Shown one piece after another: positions 54,786 to 62,001 of a stretch of DNA of 63,440 nt. This DNA comes from Akkermansiaceae bacterium (GTDB lineage: Bacteria; Verrucomicrobiota; Verrucomicrobiia; Verrucomicrobiales; Akkermansiaceae). Position 1 is the stretch's first letter, and the number at the start of each line of letters is the position of its first letter. The translations under genes were made by a program, and so were the position numbers. The stretch covers positions 1 to 63,440 of the forward strand of contig CAIRGO010000195.1 of assembly GCA_903878115.1 (NCBI GenBank). The letters are read 5' to 3'. A model generated the notes under the pieces. That model was not told the origin of the DNA, made no database searches, and was given only the letters and a program-made list of their open reading frames with translations.

Positions 54786-54813
54786 TTGACATCCGTTGTT
54801 GAGAAATTAGAAT
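54786..54813 (+). promoter_or_regulatory. Near-consensus promoter, leaderless geometry
   Basis: TTGACA (54786-54791, perfect), a 16-base spacer and TAGAAT (54808-54813, 5 of 6). The ATG at 54824 follows ten bases later. The ATG at 54812 overlaps the -10 box and cannot be the start, so this promoter decides the start codon. Confidence 0.6.
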
Positions 54814-54823
54814 GCCACCCATC

Positions 54824-55660
54824 ATGTCTGGACGTATTGATTTCTTGCATTATGACAAGACCGGAAACATTGGCGACTTTCTGTGCTCGCCAAGGAATTA
54901 TTTTGACTTCACGGCCAACCGCGATACGTTGATCGTAGGTGGAGGTGCTTCCAACGGGTTTTTCGCAAGTCGAGCGCGCAGGCATCTTGCTGATGTGCGA
55001 GTGGGTTGGGGAATCGGACAAAGTTGGCGTTTCGACAGCCCGCCTGGATTTCTGGCAATGTGGATAAGTCAAATGAAGAGACGACTTTGCTACGATTTGG
55101 TTTCTACCCGTGACCCGTTGCTGTCCAGCATGACCTTGCCCTTAGTTCCTTGTGTTAGTGTCTTTCACCCAGTTACGGAAATTTCCTGTGGCGAGAAAGT
55201 TGGCGTTTTTCTGAATGCTAATAGCTCGGTATCCGGTAGTATTTCTGATGATACGAGTTTACTTGAGAACGCTTACGCAAAACCCGTGATCCGTGCCATC
55301 AACGTAGGTGATGTGGACAAGTTCATGGAAGCATTTAGCCAGACCGAGCTGCTGATCACAAATTCGTATCATGCCGCGTACTGGGGATTGCTGTCCGGTC
55401 GGCGTGTGCATGTGATCGGCTATTCATCCAAATTCACCAGTCTGTTGGCCTTGTTCGGATTCGGGCCGGAGCGGGTCATTGCGGTGGAGCGCGGAAATGT
55501 AGAGGAACTGGAACGAGCCATTCATAGTTGCCCAGCGCTCGAACCACTAAAGTGCGAGGACCCCGCCGGAATGCGGAGCCAATTCCGCTCACTGAATCTC
55601 GATTTTTCGAAAAAGCTCGAAGCGCTCGGCATACACGCGAGTCTCCGTATCACCGAATAA
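54824..55660 (+). CDS. Polysaccharide pyruvyl transferase family protein
   Basis: 278 residues from ATG 54824 (MSGRIDFLHYDKTGNIGDFL). The family features are GNIGDFLCSPRNYF at the start and TNSYHAAYWGLLSGRRV (about 185-201) near the end, which hold the substrate-binding residues. It would add a pyruvate ketal to a sugar of the cell surface. The DNA lacks the TTAGA leucine habit seen in many neighbours, which may point to transfer, but this is weak. An IS-like element follows. Confidence 0.75.
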   Translation: MSGRIDFLHYDKTGNIGDFLCSPRNYFDFTANRDTLIVGGGASNGFFASRARRHLADVRVGWGIGQSWRFDSPPGFLAMWISQMKRRLCYDLVSTRDPLLSSMTLPLVPCVSVFHPVTEISCGEKVGVFLNANSSVSGSISDDTSLLENAYAKPVIRAINVGDVDKFMEAFSQTELLITNSYHAAYWGLLSGRRVHVIGYSSKFTSLLALFGFGPERVIAVERGNVEELERAIHSCPALEPLKCEDPAGMRSQFRSLNLDFSKKLEALGIHASLRITE

Positions 55661-55874: not shown

Positions 55875-56867
55875 AAGGGAACCTCTGGAAACCTCACCCT
55901 TAAGATTTCCTAATCAAAGCCTTTTAAAATCCACCGAAACAGATAGAATAGCGGCATGACAAATCGTCAACAAAACGGAAGTGGAAATCTGATTGCTATC
56001 CTCCAGCATCAAGAAAAAGCCCAAGCGAAAAAGATCGGCATTAATAAAATCAAAGACCTCATCGACTGGGAATCCTTTCGCAACGAACTAGAAGAGATCC
56101 TCGGCTACGCCAAACGAGAAAAATCCAAAGGCGGGCGTCCTACATTTGACCCCGTATTCATGTTTAAAATTGTCATCCTCCAAAAATACTACGGCCTCAG
56201 CGACGATGCCACCGAAGAACAAATCGAAGACCGCGCCAGCTTCATGGGCTTTCTCGACCTCAAAGTCGGGGTTCAAATCCCCGATGCCAAAACCAAACTC
56301 ATCATCAACTACAGCAACAGGCCCGCGAATGTCCACGACAGCCAAGAATTCCAAAGCCTAGTAAACGAAAGCGACCTAGCAGTGCTAGCAGACAGCGCCT
56401 ACAGTTCCGAGGCAAGCGAAGCTCACCTACACCAATGCGAATGCGAAGAATTTTTCATGAAAAAAGGCAAGCGAGGCACCCCACTTAGCGAGACCGAACA
56501 GCAAGCAAACAAAAAAATCAGTCGCATCAGATTAAGAGTAGAACACATCTTTGGTCTCATGAAACAAAAAGGCATGGACTACGTCAAAAGCATAGGCCTC
56601 AATCGAGCCCATCAGCACATCGGACTTAGTAAACTAGCCTAAAACCTCACCCGCTACGCATTGGTAAAGACAGCCCAAGCCTAACAAAATAAGAAACCCC
56701 GAGCAGAAAAGCCTCAAAAACAACCACCAGGAAGAGAAATAAGCGCAAAACTACTAGAAAATTGGCCCCGAACTGCGCATCGAAAAAAACATCCACCAGT
56801 TACCAATCGGAAAAATCACCCCAAACATGTTACTGTCTCAAAAAATCTACTTTCCAGAGCCTCCCTT
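55875..56867 (+). mobile_element. IS5-like element with internal deletion
   Basis: 993 bases bordered by imperfect 17-bp inverted repeats: AAGGGAACCTCTGGAAA (55875-55891) and the reverse complement AAGGGAGGCTCTGGAAA (56851-56867), 15 of 17 identical. The trinucleotide ATA flanks both ends, a possible 3-bp target duplication. One transposase gene remnant lies inside (55956-56684). The right end is nine bases from the stop of the ELM1-like gene. The element is shorter than a full IS5 family member and is not autonomous. Confidence 0.75.
55956..56684 (+). pseudogene. IS5-family transposase, internally deleted and prematurely stopped
   Basis: The frame has an IS5-type N-terminus (DLIDWESFRNELEEILGY, then RASFMGFLDL) that jumps straight from VQIPDAKT to KLIINYSNRPANVHDSQ. 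About 100 residues that should lie between are missing, including the first catalytic Asp. The second Asp (AVLADSAYSS) and the final Glu (LRVEHIFGLM) remain. The frame stops at 56640-56642 (TAA) where NLTRYALVKTAQA follows in frame to a stop at 56682. So it has an in-frame deletion and a nonsense mutation. Short repeats (AAAACC) at the junction hint at slippage. Confidence 0.8.
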
Positions 56868-56876
56868 ATAATTTTC

Positions 56877-57869
56877 TTAGGATGCGGTTAATTTATTAAG
56901 AATATCTGCACCCAAATTGTAATGCCAGTTTGGGGCCATTAGGTTGAAGTTATCGTAGGGAGGGGCTAGAACTTTATCATAGTTTTTGCTTAAGCGAATG
57001 ATTCGCCGATTTTTAGAAAGATTTGTCAACATGCCCTCTTGTAGTTCTTGGGGAGACACGCGAGACGGACTGATCGTTGCCACAGGCCGTCCAGAGGCTA
57101 TTGCTTCGCATATCATCGATGCGCTGTCTTCGGTGACGATAATTGCCTCAGCTTTTCCCATGATGGCAGCCATGCTAGCGTTTTCGCTTTTGTTCGCTTC
57201 TGTGTGCCATAATCCTAACGCTAGCAATCCAGAGTTTTCTAAAGTTTTTTTCCAGCATCCCTCAGCAGCGGAACCAGTTCTTCTTGAGCTGGTGGCAATG
57301 ATCTTGACTCCCGCATCATGTGCTTGTTTAGCGATTTTTAGAGCGCAATTTTGATGGTCGCTCAGTGTCCAGTTGTAGCCTGAGCCGTTGCCTCCAATGA
57401 GTATTGTCCAATAGCGGTTTGATAAATGGCTTAGTTCTTCGTGTGCAGCTTGAGTTACCATGTTGTGATCATATTCCGATGGGAGGAATTCTAATGGATA
57501 AACTCGTGTATTTTCTATATGGATGACGCGTGGGAGGATAGTAAAACTGTTCATTTTGCAAACACGGTTCGAACCTAAATAGATGTTTTTCGCGTTGTGC
57601 TTTTTGGTCAAAACGGCATTGGCCCATTCTGTTGCGCCTCCAGCAGAGATTATCAAATCAAATGGCTCAATGATTGTATTATGGATGCAGAATTTTACAG
57701 ACGAAAATGGGAGGCTAGGTATGATGTGTCTGAAACATGCGGGGCTCCAGGCAATAGGGATTTTTTGGATGGATAAATCAGCATGAAGAGAAAGGGCTTT
57801 TAAGACCCCTTTTGCTTTGGTCAGGTGACCTGGCTTTCGATCCATTAGCCAGCATACGTTTAGTTTCAT
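56877..57869 (-). CDS. ELM1-family protein (predicted GT-B glycosyltransferase), copy A
   Basis: 330 residues. Recognised as a member of the mitochondrial-fission ELM1 family (DUF1022) by LMDRKPGHLTKAKGVLKAL (KPGH, residues 12-15), LIGGNGSGYNWTL, and VTEDSASMICEAIASGRPVATISP. The last motif resembles the nucleotide-sugar-binding part of GT-B enzymes such as MurG. Bacterial members are uncharacterised. It is the last gene of the surface-glycan operon, 23 bases after the sulfotransferase. The IS-like element ends nine bases beyond the stop. Confidence 0.75.
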   Translation of the reverse strand: MKLNVCWLMDRKPGHLTKAKGVLKALSLHADLSIQKIPIAWSPACFRHIIPSLPFSSVKFCIHNTIIEPFDLIISAGGATEWANAVLTKKHNAKNIYLGSNRVCKMNSFTILPRVIHIENTRVYPLEFLPSEYDHNMVTQAAHEELSHLSNRYWTILIGGNGSGYNWTLSDHQNCALKIAKQAHDAGVKIIATSSRRTGSAAEGCWKKTLENSGLLALGLWHTEANKSENASMAAIMGKAEAIIVTEDSASMICEAIASGRPVATISPSRVSPQELQEGMLTNLSKNRRIIRLSKNYDKVLAPPYDNFNLMAPNWHYNLGADILNKLTAS

Positions 57870-57892
57870 TTTTTACTTTCTTCTGTAGTTGA

Positions 57893-58585
57893 TTAAAATT
57901 TATAGCCCATGAATTCAATTTCACGGTAAAATAAGCGTGAAATCTGTTCGCGTGTCTCATCGTTATAATATTCTTGGTATCCACCCATTTTTTCCTGTTT
58001 TACTCGAGTTTTTTCTTTCGGCATGCTTACCTTGAATGAATCTCCTAGTTTTTCGCATACTTGAGGAAAAGTGATCTCAAAGCTCTCGTAGTCAAACACC
58101 TCATCTACGATGTAATTATCACCATCAAAATAGAGTCTGGCGTCCATTAGTAGGCGATGTGATTTTTTCATCACGTATTCTTCAAACGACGGCATTTTTC
58201 GGCTTTGTCCGTTTTTCTTCCAGTTATAGTAAGACACAACTTTAGCCCAAGGGTTTCGTTCGAAACAGATTTTTTTATAACTATTCCAGATTTCTTCTCC
58301 AATCAGTTGGCGGACTCTTACAGCAGGCATGTGCTCATAGTACCATTTTCCTAGGAAATCCGAATGGCGGTTGATGCATTTGCGGAACATCTTTGATTGT
58401 GCGTAAACCTTGCCAATAACATTATTCTCATGGTAGTTTTTTGGTAGGTCAGTCGAACGGTTTGATTCCATTGGGGTAATGATGTCTTCTTGGCCACAAA
58501 GTGGAGCAAGCGTACTCTTAATGCTGCTTCCTGCTGTTTTGTGCGTTTTTATGAAGATGAATTTGTAACGATGGCTGAAAATCAT
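57893..58585 (-). CDS. Sulfotransferase family 2-type protein
   Basis: 230 residues. FIKTHKTAGSSIKSTL (13-28) is the 5'-phosphosulfate-binding loop for PAPS, and KICFERNPWAKVVSYY (about 105-120) holds the 3'-phosphate-binding Arg and Ser. It would sulfate a carbohydrate. In this operon the sugar may be a surface glycan or lipid A-linked sugar. PAPS must come from genes elsewhere. Located between the GT4 glycosyltransferase and ELM1 copy A. Interesting given the arylsulfatase at 783-2171. Confidence 0.85.
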   Translation of the reverse strand: MIFSHRYKFIFIKTHKTAGSSIKSTLAPLCGQEDIITPMESNRSTDLPKNYHENNVIGKVYAQSKMFRKCINRHSDFLGKWYYEHMPAVRVRQLIGEEIWNSYKKICFERNPWAKVVSYYNWKKNGQSRKMPSFEEYVMKKSHRLLMDARLYFDGDNYIVDEVFDYESFEITFPQVCEKLGDSFKVSMPKEKTRVKQEKMGGYQEYYNDETREQISRLFYREIEFMGYKF

Positions 58586-58624
58586 TTTTTGTAATGTTGT
58601 CGTTTATTAATGTGCTAATATTGG

Positions 58625-59731
58625 TTACAAATTATTTGAAATTAGCTTGATGTATAGATTCATTGTATTGAGCAACATTTTTTCTAACGTAAAGGTATTC
58701 TCAAGAGGTGGTTGCGGCGCTTGAGCGATCCACGACGCTATAAGATCGGCTGCTGCATTCCAATCACCTGGCGGGATATTTCCTGCGGGAAATAAGGCGT
58801 CGAGTTGCTCGGCTACTCCACCATGGTGATACGCTGCTACTGGTTTGCCCAAGCCCATGGCCTCTAAGCTAACGCGCCCGAAAGCCTCGGGATCGAGCGA
58901 CAAGCTGACGATAGCATCGGATACTGACATGACTTCTCGCAGGTCGGTGCGATCACCCAAAAATGTGATGTGATTCTCGATTTTTAATGAGGCGATCAAG
59001 GCGCGCAGTTCGGAGCCGAATTCTTGTTTTTTTGGATGACACGATCCAGCAATGGTGCCGTGAACAGGGAGATTTTTTTCGAGTAGCGCACGAATCAGAT
59101 GGCAAAAATGTTCGTGTCCTTTCCACCGCGAAATGCGCCCTGGCAGGTTGATGCAATATTTCCCCTGTAATTGTGGGTATTGATACCTCCATTGAGTGAG
59201 CCAGGAATCGCTGGGTTGAAAGTCAGGTCGATAAAAATCATTAGATATACCGCGGTGAATAACGGTGATGCGCGTAGGATCTATGGGGTAATTCTGGAGA
59301 ATGTGTTGTTTGACAGAGTCGGAAACGGCGATGATCTGTTCACCACGCGTCATGATGCGCGAGTAGGAATTGACGGAATAGAATCCGTGAAAAGTGCTAA
59401 CAAAGCGAGGACGGGTGGCGTGGGGTAGGGATTTCCATGCTAGCCAAGCGATCCAGGCAGGCACTCGTGATCGAACATGGATAATATCTGGTTTTTCGCT
59501 CGCAAATATTTTACGAAGGTTCTTGATCAACAAGAGTGTGGCTAGGCTCTTTCGATGAACTGGCAGAGTAATATGTGTTCCTTCCTCTTGCTCTAACTGT
59601 GCGACAAGTCGACCGCCATGCGAAATAACCAGCGATTGATGATTCTGACTGATCAGGTATTTTGATACTTCCAAGGTGCCGCGTTCGACTCCGCCGGAGT
59701 TAAGTTCAGGAAGGATCTGGATGACTTTCAT
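58625..59731 (-). CDS. GT4 family glycosyltransferase
   Basis: 368 residues. N-terminal GT-B half with ILPELNSGGVERGTLEVSKYL, a typical GT4 acceptor side. C-terminal half: NLPGRISRWKGHEHFCHLI, ITFLGDRTDLREVMSVSDAIVSLS and PEAFGRVSLEAMGLGKPVAA, with the E-x7-E motif. It overlaps the stop of ELM1 copy B (ATGA). It adds a sugar to a glycolipid or polysaccharide, likely lipopolysaccharide core given the acyltransferase in the operon. Confidence 0.88.
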   Translation of the reverse strand: MKVIQILPELNSGGVERGTLEVSKYLISQNHQSLVISHGGRLVAQLEQEEGTHITLPVHRKSLATLLLIKNLRKIFASEKPDIIHVRSRVPAWIAWLAWKSLPHATRPRFVSTFHGFYSVNSYSRIMTRGEQIIAVSDSVKQHILQNYPIDPTRITVIHRGISNDFYRPDFQPSDSWLTQWRYQYPQLQGKYCINLPGRISRWKGHEHFCHLIRALLEKNLPVHGTIAGSCHPKKQEFGSELRALIASLKIENHITFLGDRTDLREVMSVSDAIVSLSLDPEAFGRVSLEAMGLGKPVAAYHHGGVAEQLDALFPAGNIPPGDWNAAADLIASWIAQAPQPPLENTFTLEKMLLNTMNLYIKLISNNL

Positions 59732-60627
59732 AGCAAATGAGGAAATATTTTTTGTGTGATGATCTTCGCGCAGCGATCGGCCTCGTTGAGGATGGTAGGT
59801 GCAGGCGAGAGTTTACGCTGTGCTAGCCAACTTGAATAGGTAGTGAGAGAGTTGCTATCGATAAGTTGCTTGATGGTTTGTTGAATTTTCCCATTTTCTT
59901 TTAGGCGTTTCATTGGCAGTAATCCGACTGCAGCGCCGCTTGAGAGAGCCTCAAAGATCATCGATACGCTGTCCTCCGTGACCCAGACTTCGCTAGACTG
60001 TTGCAATTGGTTAGGTAGCCAATCTGCGCTAGTATCCTGATGAGGATGAAGAATCACGGGGGAAGGGGACACGGCTTCCATGAATCCGATGGGTGTGCGG
60101 CGAGAATCGGTGAGGTGCCAGATAAGGTTATTAGTGCGGGAAATTTCAGCCACTGCTTCTAATAACGATGACTCATTCCACGCGTATTCTTTGGAGGGGC
60201 CGCCGATTAAGATTAGGCCTTGATGGGACTTCGCTTTGTTGGCGATAATTCGATTGAGTGCGCCTACCGTGGGTATGACATTCGTTTTCAGCGCTCGATT
60301 TTTAAGATCATGTTCTGGAATGAGGCAGAGATCAAATAGCCGAGTCGGGAGACTGGGGCGCATCATGACGATGGAACGAGCCTTCATTTTTCTGCCTAGA
60401 TATAATAATGGCACATGTGTGCGGTGACCAGCGCCGATGATGATATCCGGTTTGGGTAAGGAAGCAAGTTGAGCGGTGGCGTAGCGGATCTTTTTCCACC
60501 ATGATCCCAGAGGAAGTTCGATGATGTTTACCTCTGATGGAGTATGGCGTGCGAGCGCCTCTGCCAATCCTTTTGATTGATTGAAGTGCCCTGGTTTCCC
60601 ATCAGAAAGTAGTAGGATCGATAGCAT
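59728..60627 (-). CDS. ELM1-family protein (predicted GT-B glycosyltransferase), copy B
   Basis: 299 residues. The ELM1 features: LLLSDGKPGHFNQSKGLAEAL (DGKPGH, residues 9-14), LILIGGPSKEYAWN, and WVTEDSVSMIFEALSSGAAVGLLP. DGKPGH is closer to the family consensus than copy A. It starts six bases after the acyltransferase gene's stop. Its nearest relatives probably include copy A, but the two are clearly diverged. A glycosyltransfer step on lipid A or core is the best guess. Confidence 0.75.
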   Translation of the reverse strand: MLSILLLSDGKPGHFNQSKGLAEALARHTPSEVNIIELPLGSWWKKIRYATAQLASLPKPDIIIGAGHRTHVPLLYLGRKMKARSIVMMRPSLPTRLFDLCLIPEHDLKNRALKTNVIPTVGALNRIIANKAKSHQGLILIGGPSKEYAWNESSLLEAVAEISRTNNLIWHLTDSRRTPIGFMEAVSPSPVILHPHQDTSADWLPNQLQQSSEVWVTEDSVSMIFEALSSGAAVGLLPMKRLKENGKIQQTIKQLIDSNSLTTYSSWLAQRKLSPAPTILNEADRCAKIITQKIFPHLL

Positions 60628-60633
60628 CGCGTT

Positions 60634-62001
60634 TTATTGAATCGGAGTTTCAGGAAGTGGGCAACCTAGATGATGGATTAATGAGAGCCATGTATTAGGG
60701 TCTTCTGGATCTTGTCCATTCAGTTTATTAGTAATTGTGTAGTCCCTTCCTGCACTAAATCCTGCACAATTGGCTACAGCAGATTTTTTAAGGTCTTTCA
60801 ATGATAAATGACCGATGTCAAAAACCACCAACAAATCTAAGGGTAATTCATTTTCTCTATCTAGTTTGTCAATGGCAGTTGCGAGAGCAGTTTCTCTGTC
60901 GATCTGGTGAAAGGTGATGTTGGCTGCAGAACAATCAAAGGGTTTGCACAACAAATGGAAATGGCAATCTGTAAGCATGCTAACAAGATGATGAATGGCA
61001 GTGAGCGATGCGCTTCTTTGAGCTTCGTTTGGCGATAACGCTAGAACAAGTTGCCAAGGCTTGCGATTGAAGCCCAGATCACGGCGACGATTTTTGGCGC
61101 GCAAAATATCACGTGCGGGAAGTTTCCACCGATCGTGTAGCCAAAATCCATCACGAGGACTTTTACTTAGTGCCTGTTCTATGCCAGCCATGATGGAAGA
61201 GGTGGTGATCTCTTGTTTTGAATCGTGAGGGAAAAGCAATACTTGCCAGCGTCCTGGGGCGATGCGAATGACCGAAGCGAAAAACAAACTCGCTCCAGTT
61301 CTTCGCTGCAGTAACGAAGGTAAAGGGGAGCATGAAATATTTCTACCAAAGTAAGGAGTGATCTCTCCCGATTTCCCCGCATTTTGATCCGACAGAATCC
61401 CAAGAATGCCGCCTGATCGTAATAACGCAGTTGCTTTCAGAAATGCTTCTTTGCTGGAAAAAAGTTCCATTCCAGATACTTTACGGCGTTTTCTTACAAC
61501 GGCATCAATGAGATGATTGTTGAGTGGGCGATAAAACGCTCCGCAGCGGGCATTGGGTGAAACGAGATGGCCGAGTCGAGCCAGAATCTCCCAATTTCCC
61601 ATGTGTGCGAGCGCGAAAATAATCCCTCGACCTGTTTTTTGCGCTTCGGTCACCTGCTGCTGCCCTACGATTTCTACCGAATGGATAATTTGCTCATCGC
61701 TCATCAGTGCTGTGCGCATTCCTCCAAGCATATTGGCACCCGCCTGAGAAAAAATTGATTTAGATAACTGTAGTATTTCTGGTTTTGTTAAATTTTCTCC
61801 CCAAGCGATTCGTAAATTTCTTTGCACAATTTTACGCCGCGAAGGAAGTATTTTTTCAGCGAAAGATCCGATGGCTGAGCCCAGTTTGTCGACAGATTTG
61901 ATCGGTAGAAGTTGTAAAAACATCTCCATACAGCGGAAAAGAACATACTCGACAGTATTTTTCCCTGCTGGACGTTTGATGCGATTTCTAGCCACAGGCA
62001 A
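60634..62001 (-). CDS. Lipid A acyltransferase (LpxL/HtrB-like) with extra C-terminal domain
   Basis: 455 residues from a TTG at 62001, preceded by AGGA seven bases earlier; a GTG at 61995 is possible. The N-terminal 300 residues are a lysophospholipid/lipid A acyltransferase: LAHMGNWEI with H133 and E138 (HX4E motif), YRPLNN, LSDQNAG and HDRWK. The last 145 residues are not part of LpxL: LVLALSPNEAQRSASLTAIHHL, LVVFDIG and a GFSAGRDYTITNKL stretch that resemble the N-terminal half of GT9 heptosyltransferases. The nucleotide-binding half of GT9 is absent. It is the first gene of the operon with two ELM1 proteins, a GT4 and a sulfotransferase. Confidence 0.8.
   Translation of the reverse strand: MPVARNRIKRPAGKNTVEYVLFRCMEMFLQLLPIKSVDKLGSAIGSFAEKILPSRRKIVQRNLRIAWGENLTKPEILQLSKSIFSQAGANMLGGMRTALMSDEQIIHSVEIVGQQQVTEAQKTGRGIIFALAHMGNWEILARLGHLVSPNARCGAFYRPLNNHLIDAVVRKRRKVSGMELFSSKEAFLKATALLRSGGILGILSDQNAGKSGEITPYFGRNISCSPLPSLLQRRTGASLFFASVIRIAPGRWQVLLFPHDSKQEITTSSIMAGIEQALSKSPRDGFWLHDRWKLPARDILRAKNRRRDLGFNRKPWQLVLALSPNEAQRSASLTAIHHLVSMLTDCHFHLLCKPFDCSAANITFHQIDRETALATAIDKLDRENELPLDLLVVFDIGHLSLKDLKKSAVANCAGFSAGRDYTITNKLNGQDPEDPNTWLSLIHHLGCPLPETPIQ

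Follow-up and report, generated by a model that had tools for sequence, protein, structure and literature searches.

What might two proteins annotated 'mitochondrial fission ELM1' do in a bacterial operon that also encodes a lipid A acyltransferase, a glycosyltransferase of family 4 (GT4) and a sulfotransferase-like protein? The question is raised by five genes in the window, that is, the whole stretch of 63,440 nucleotides analysed here, which is one entire contig (C195) of the genome of an Akkermansiaceae bacterium (Verrucomicrobiota; GCA_903878115.1). The answer for which we argue, and to which we give a probability of about 0.72, is that these genes complete lipid A and assemble the inner core of a lipooligosaccharide (LOS). 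In the mechanism proposed, WaaA would place two residues of 3-deoxy-D-manno-oct-2-ulosonic acid (Kdo) on the precursor of lipid A; the LpxL-type enzyme would attach a secondary acyl chain, its half-heptosyltransferase domain probably helping to hold Kdo-lipid A; one ELM1 protein (copy B) would transfer a third Kdo from cytidine monophosphate-Kdo (CMP-Kdo), like KdoT in Acinetobacter baumannii; the GT4 enzyme would cap this third Kdo with a further sugar, like GnaT; the other ELM1 protein (copy A), which keeps the CMP-Kdo motifs and has a changed acceptor face, would probably add Kdo or a Kdo-like residue further out; and the sulfotransferase would probably sulfate one of the added sugars. We infer every one of these catalytic steps for the window organism, those of copy A and of sulfation with the least certainty.

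The function of copy B is approached through the A. baumannii ELM1 protein A1S_2903, which has been renamed KdoT and is reported to add KdoIII to Kdo2-lipid A from CMP-Kdo (PMC12856342, J Biol Chem 2025); KdoT is described there in Acinetobacter, with homologues in Rickettsia. A preliminary description of the stretch had held that the ELM1 family is without a known function in bacteria, a statement that this report makes outdated. Copy B matches PF06258 with 207 bits and copy A with 102 bits (cut-off 27). In copy B, the motifs are DGKPGH (residues 9–14), HD (106–107), SRRT (175–178) and TEDSVSMIFEA (217–227). That both copies keep KPGH and TEDS-SM-EA had already been noticed, and both motifs are indeed present, together with SRRT, which had not been listed. 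In KdoT, mutants in SRRT were reported to differ: the loss of R180 impairs activity and R179 is dispensable (PMC12856342). The counterpart of R180 in copy B, R177, is an arginine in all 186 rows of an alignment of ELM1 genes (148/148 copy-B-type, 17/17 copy-A-type and 21/21 third-clade rows, not de-duplicated and with the long-branch L040 of G243 omitted), while R176, the counterpart of R179, is an arginine in 133/148, 15/17 and 21/21 of them, respectively. Since the counterpart of R180 is invariant and that of R179 variable, natural variation follows the pattern of the reported mutants. A KdoIII transferase of the KdoT type is the most likely identity of copy B, because SRRT is kept, the key arginine is invariant, the pairing with a GT4 gene recurs, and the core of the gut bacterium Akkermansia muciniphila has three Kdo (the last two points are taken up below).

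The model of copy B, with a predicted local distance difference test score (pLDDT) of 96, has the GT-B fold known from sugar-nucleotide enzymes, which agrees with the GT-B-like site that had been predicted from the motifs. Its best matches among solved folds are UDP-GlcNAc 2-epimerases, with Z up to 17.6 and a root-mean-square deviation (rmsd) of 4.1–4.8 across 273–277 residues; MGD1 and MurG are also listed. Judged by the model, these matches put ELM1 in GT-B, and the donor is not told by the fold. A sequence search for solved ELM1 relatives found none at E up to 1, and no relative of copy B was found in viral contigs. A rival reading takes over the sulfated lipopolysaccharide (LPS) proposed at the outset and has the ELM1 proteins move an ordinary hexose or the like rather than Kdo. 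That the nearest GT-B folds, including MurG, belong to UDP-sugar enzymes would suit a hexose donor, which is not thereby fixed. However, the sole characterised member of the family uses CMP-Kdo, its functional arginine is invariant, and a gene for a Kdo cytidylyltransferase lies near a copy-A-type gene in one genome (G381), so a hexose donor is improbable.

Might copy B instead replace WaaA as the primary Kdo transferase? Copy B adjoins LpxL, which in E. coli acts after the addition of Kdo. Yet WaaA is encoded elsewhere in the window genome (1e-51), in 11 of 12 genomes of named loci (the twelfth is of only 1.3 Mb) and, in a sample of the phylum, in 90/90 ELM1-bearing genomes; KdoT, moreover, was reported to be inactive on Kdo-free lipid IVA (PMC12856342). 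The idea of ELM1 as primary Kdo transferase was rejected on the presence of WaaA in these genomes, and we give it hardly any credence. For the supply of CMP-Kdo, the window genome also encodes KdsB (228 bits, cut-off 155.2). The converse idea, that co-occurrence with WaaA proves the function of ELM1, was likewise rejected: WaaA is present in 289/297 of the other genomes of the sample and in 379/387 overall, and while none of the 8 genomes lacking WaaA has ELM1, chance alone would give such a result about one time in eight.

The partner of copy B is the GT4 enzyme, in which the domains PF13439 and PF00534 score well above their cut-offs and the EX7E motif is formed by E282 and E290 (E283 and E291 in GnaT). 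In A. baumannii, the GT4 enzyme GnaT (LpsB), a UDP-GlcNAcA transferase, acts after KdoT (PMC12856342). The genes of copy B and GT4 overlap by 4 bp. The copy-B-type gene (ELM1B) is followed immediately downstream by a GT4 gene of this subfamily for 22/27 genes of the Verrucomicrobiota loci, 34/75 named loci and 26/38 loci of Pseudomonadales, and the full triad LpxL-ELM1B-GT4 occurs in 12/27, 19/70 and 16/38; neighbours were counted from domain coordinates where the gene had room, and the three sets, which consist of best hits or hand-picked loci and overlap in part, do not give population rates. The named loci are the best 80 of 569 relatives, the closest being Akkermansiaceae metagenome-assembled genomes (MAGs), Haloferula and Luteolibacter. 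A survey of ELM1 with LpxL, which had been suggested as a check, thus finds the two together in part of the relatives, while many ELM1B loci are without LpxL. Copy B and the GT4 enzyme are most likely an inner-core pair of the KdoT-GnaT type.

A genome taken as that of A. muciniphila (G113) has a single ELM1 gene, which overlaps by 4 bp with a GT4 gene that in turn overlaps dprA; identity is 39% between its ELM1 protein and copy B and 44% between its GT4 protein and that of the window. The inner core of the LOS of A. muciniphila is reported to have three Kdo (PMC13135019; PMC12527988), and no publication linking this core with the ELM1-GT4 pair was found in the open-licence literature. The ELM1 gene would thus be a candidate for the enzyme that adds the third Kdo to the LOS of A. 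muciniphila; this LOS is reported to affect metabolism in mice.

The five genes are those of the table below. They are tightly packed, as had been described, and the coordinates of the open reading frames give distances in transcription order of 6, -4, 39 and 23 bases. They are called an operon because of this spacing and their conserved order, promoter-like or terminator-like sites across the region being not above the level of shuffled sequence. The same five-gene order occurs in another Akkermansiaceae genome (L119), so the set is more than a chance grouping. No ELM1 gene besides copies A and B was found in the window genome, an assembly of 4.4 Mb that is 95% complete.

Features of the ELM1 operon, in transcription order, with the block of high DNA identity
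Feature	Positions	Strand	Basis or remark
LpxL/HtrB-type lipid A secondary acyltransferase fusion	60634..62001	-	Start codon TTG, start uncertain
ELM1 copy B, predicted KdoT-type GT-B Kdo transferase	59728..60627	-	PF06258, motifs and model
GT4 glycosyltransferase, predicted GnaT-like partner	58625..59731	-	GT4 Pfam domains, EX7E, adjacency to ELM1B in relatives
Sulfotransferase-like protein	57893..58585	-	PF03567 family, just under cut-off
ELM1 copy A, predicted second ulosonic-acid transferase	56877..57869	-	Same donor-side motifs as copy B
Mosaic block: most of GT4, whole sulfotransferase, start of copy A	57750..59550	-	DNA identity to L119

Just past the end of the operon lies an IS5-type transposase gene (55956-56642, plus strand; NF033581 145 bits, cut-off 140). 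Genes for polysaccharide pyruvyltransferases (PF04230) recur near ELM1, in the window (54812-55660, plus strand) and at L039:6937-7866, L051:6170-7069 and L118:8212-9294; in L039, the gene sits between ELM1B and GT4.

The first gene of the operon had been described as an acyltransferase fusion. The fusion is real: Pfam reports the acyltransferase alone, and the C-terminal 150 residues are placed by fold. PF03279 matches with 127 bits, the acyltransferase takes up residues ~26-293, with the HX4E/D-type motif HMGNWE at 133, and this is the sole PF03279 gene found in the window genome. The AlphaFold2 model (pLDDT 88) fits LpxM of A. baumannii (5kn7; Z 28.0, rmsd 2.1, 244 residues). For residues 297-455, the fit is to the first 157-160 residues of enzymes of glycosyltransferase family 9 (GT9), with Z 12.6 for 3tov and ~10 for WaaC, a value equalled by a chain of an NDH subunit (Z 10.0). 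By sequence, PF01075 has no match in the window protein, and a profile comparison of the C-terminus with four neighbouring GT9 proteins was not significant. The protein also falls under the cut-offs of all 17 NCBIfam models that it matched (TIGR02207, 92 bits vs 297.8; TIGR02208, 52 vs 336). Since the donor-binding half is absent, the fusion is not a complete heptosyltransferase. It looks like a shortened form of an acyltransferase-GT9 fusion, because its homologue in G113 (L239:2048-3973) is longer, with 641 residues, and has PF01075 above the cut-off. In the other 22 genomes of the genus (g2), the open frames at the acyltransferase gene are of 474-754 residues, except for one of 409. The half-heptosyltransferase domain corresponds to the N-terminal, acceptor-binding half of WaaC and probably helps the acyltransferase to hold Kdo-lipid A.

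Is the product of these genes indeed an LPS core? Alternatively, they might serve to form a Kdo linker in a capsule or in another lipid-linked polymer. KpsC is a GT-B-type enzyme. It is a different Kdo transferase and is reported to serve capsule synthesis (PMC10148158); and the pyruvyltransferase gene near the operon in the window might also be taken to suit a capsule. Against this stand the acyltransferase in the same operon and the surroundings of the family elsewhere. In the congeneric genome G268, the triad is followed by one protein without a Pfam match and then by a GT9 protein, a HAD phosphatase-like protein, a nucleotidyltransferase and an epimerase, which we take to be the usual ADP-heptose set. 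In L170, ELM1B is immediately preceded by a gene for an MsbA-like exporter (below the cut-offs of the MsbA equivalog), and in L164 such a gene lies ~1.4 kb ahead of it. Of the loci of Pseudomonadales, 7/38 have a match to ilvE of >200 bits no more than two genes away from ELM1B, and ilvE is reported to form the edge of the core locus of A. baumannii (PMC10936431). In Marinobacter koreensis (L194), the row reads ilvE, an acyltransferase on the opposite strand, ELM1B, GT4, a polysaccharide deacetylase, a second GT4 and a copy-A-type ELM1. A capsule linker is therefore very improbable, and glycosyl transfer on the lipid A and core side of LPS, which the preliminary description had predicted, is supported.

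What, then, would the second ELM1 protein add? Copy A has the motifs KPGH, SRRT (195-198) and TEDSASMICEA. In a tree of the family (midpoint root only, and with a warning of long branches), the copy-B types stand on one side of a fully supported branch, and a set of 17 rows that includes the copy A of the window is supported at 96/93. On the acceptor side, the copy-B types have H71 in 145/148 rows and H106 and D107 in 148/148, whereas the copy A of the window has E, V and I at these places. Among the residues listed for the copy-A types, histidine is absent from positions 71 and 106, and 7/17 have aspartate at 107, with the donor-side residues retained; the third clade has D107 in 21/21 and has lost both histidines. 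Because the donor-side residues are kept and the acceptor-side residues changed, we infer that copy A has the same donor as copy B and another acceptor, and it probably adds another Kdo or a Kdo-like residue.

The neighbours of the copy-A-type genes are consistent with such a donor. In G381, a gene for a Kdo cytidylyltransferase lies 368 bases upstream of the copy-A-type gene (NF009905 272.5 bits, cut-off 255; TIGR00466 134 bits, under its cut-off of 155); it is preceded by an HMGL-type aldolase gene, and a pyruvyltransferase gene follows ELM1. This row of aldolase, cytidylyltransferase and copy-A-type ELM1 (L051:2314-6145) may serve to make a modified ulosonic acid. LPS genes also accompany copy-A-type genes at the loci of Marinobacter (L194), of L236, of G140 and of G381. 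It is a tentative idea, to be rated as possible rather than probable, that copy A represents an undescribed second clade of ulosonic-acid transferases with a KdoT-like CMP-ulosonate site and a different acceptor, which, with varying neighbours, would decorate the inner core with an additional, modified Kdo-like sugar.

The sulfotransferase-like protein of the window scores 21.3 bits with PF03567 (cut-off 22), and its 88% identical orthologue in L119 scores 25.0. It contains KTHKTAGSS and FERNPWAKVVSYY, which presumably resemble the 5'- and 3'-phosphosulfate-binding (5'-PSB and 3'-PSB) loops for 3'-phosphoadenosine-5'-phosphosulfate (PAPS). A sequence search for solved sulfotransferase relatives gave only an unrelated nonhistone chromosomal protein (E 0.04). 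Adenosine-5'-phosphosulfate (APS) kinase is encoded in the window genome, so PAPS can be made. Relatives of the protein occur in 17/387 genomes, the window genome included; among the 19 named loci that have the LpxL-ELM1-GT4 triad, L119 alone shows the sulfotransferase gene. Sulfotransferases adjoin ELM1 independently in Planctomycetota: in L170 (2950-7575), genes for an MsbA-like exporter, ELM1B and two sulfotransferases (PF13469/PF00685 and PF03567) overlap or are closely spaced. L172 and L178 have a similar order, with the test there confined to the second sulfotransferase; the Pfam assignments are those of L170. Sulfation of LPS is known from LpsS of Sinorhizobium meliloti (PMC12445080). 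That the window protein might sulfate the core is plausible.

The history of this part of the operon differs from that of the rest. Between the window and L119, protein identity is 88% for the sulfotransferase and 79% for GT4 vs 39% for the acyltransferase, 50% for copy B and 55% for copy A. In bins of 150 bases, DNA identity is 73-99% from ~59550 to 57750, 41-65% upstream and 47-61% over the rest of copy A. This jump indicates that the GT4-sulfotransferase block has been exchanged between lineages.

A number of points weigh against the inner-core reading with all its steps, and those that concern the sulfotransferase also bear on a narrower alternative, in which the triad serves the LOS core and the sulfotransferase and copy A came in recently as a passenger cassette, neutral or with another target. 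The window sulfotransferase is under the Pfam cut-off. Its closest relatives, a paralogue in the same genome (L113, G000:C18:11867-12547; 60% identity) and one in G215:C7 (L114; 58%), stand beside genes for a GTPase, a YkuD protein (L,D-transpeptidase, encoded near each of the two) and SurA-type proteins, not beside LPS genes. The congeneric G268 and G316 are without the sulfotransferase, which, with the mosaic DNA, fits a swapped-in cassette, and G268 has the triad without copy A as well. On the other side, L119 has the same order although its copy A is only 55% identical, so the genes have been kept together over a long divergence, and the copy-A-type genes of Marinobacter L194, L236, G140 and G381 lie with LPS genes. 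We regard a passenger cassette as unlikely, although it is the most serious of the alternatives.

Other such points concern copies A and B and their partners. In copies A and B, identity is 28% in the N-terminal half and 27% in the C-terminal half, the donor half being not better kept, so the case for the same donor and another acceptor is carried by the motif residues. The correspondence between residues of the window and of KdoT comes from published numbering and motif spacing rather than a direct sequence comparison, with ELM1 genes of Pseudomonadales, some of them at the ilvE position, compared instead. UDP-GlcNAcA, the donor of GnaT, is not known to be made here, UDP-GlcNAc dehydrogenase having not been looked for. 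WaaA is near-universal, and its co-occurrence with ELM1 therefore discriminates little. The neighbourhood counts are without a random-gene control; many relatives, chiefly freshwater MAGs of Akkermansiaceae, carry ELM1B without GT4 or LpxL nearby. ELM1 copies found with unrelated genes in relatives had been named beforehand as an argument against the operon's interpretation, and for part of the family they are so found: in 41 of the 75 named loci with room, GT4 does not lie directly downstream of ELM1B. In sum, the earlier interpretation of the operon is supported in part and outdated on one point.

If the inner-core reading is right, the gene pair extends KdoT from Acinetobacter to Verrucomicrobiota, including what is probably A. 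muciniphila, and the bacterial 'mitochondrial fission ELM1' annotations considered here, which very probably mislabel sugar transferases, should be renamed. It also points to a sister clade (copy A) and to an unusual lipid A acyltransferase with heptosyltransferase-like parts. The kind of function proposed for copy B is already known from KdoT, and the more interesting part of the operon lies in copy A and the sulfotransferase: were the reading of the copy A clade true, the window organism would have a sulfated inner core with at least four Kdo-type residues, made by a cassette-swapping locus.

The operon can be compared with several known systems. Like KdoT, copy B is an ELM1 protein of ~300 residues with a GT-B fold that would work with a GT4 enzyme; D and H are five apart near the N-terminus in both (D8/H13 in KdoT, D9/H14 in copy B), HD is at 109-110 in KdoT and 106-107 in copy B, and the SRRT arginines are R179/R180 and R176/R177. 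The window differs in having two ELM1 copies, an operon with LpxL instead of the ilvE-aspS locus and, in addition, a sulfotransferase-like gene. The GT4 enzyme resembles GnaT in family, in size and in the nearly equal positions of EX7E, and GnaT acts straight after the ELM1 enzyme; however, the window GT4 gene overlaps an ELM1 gene, whereas lpsB of A. baumannii is reported to sit outside the core locus (PMC10936431). LpsS provides a precedent for a sulfotransferase that modifies LPS, but is assigned to the Stf0 family (PMC12445080), whereas the window protein is PF03567-like. The acyltransferase shares PF03279 and the HX4E-type motif with LpxL/HtrB and LpxM and has the fold of LpxM, and it differs from them by its extra C-terminal half-GT9 domain. 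That domain, finally, fits residues 1-160 of WaaC, without the donor-binding half of the heptosyltransferase.

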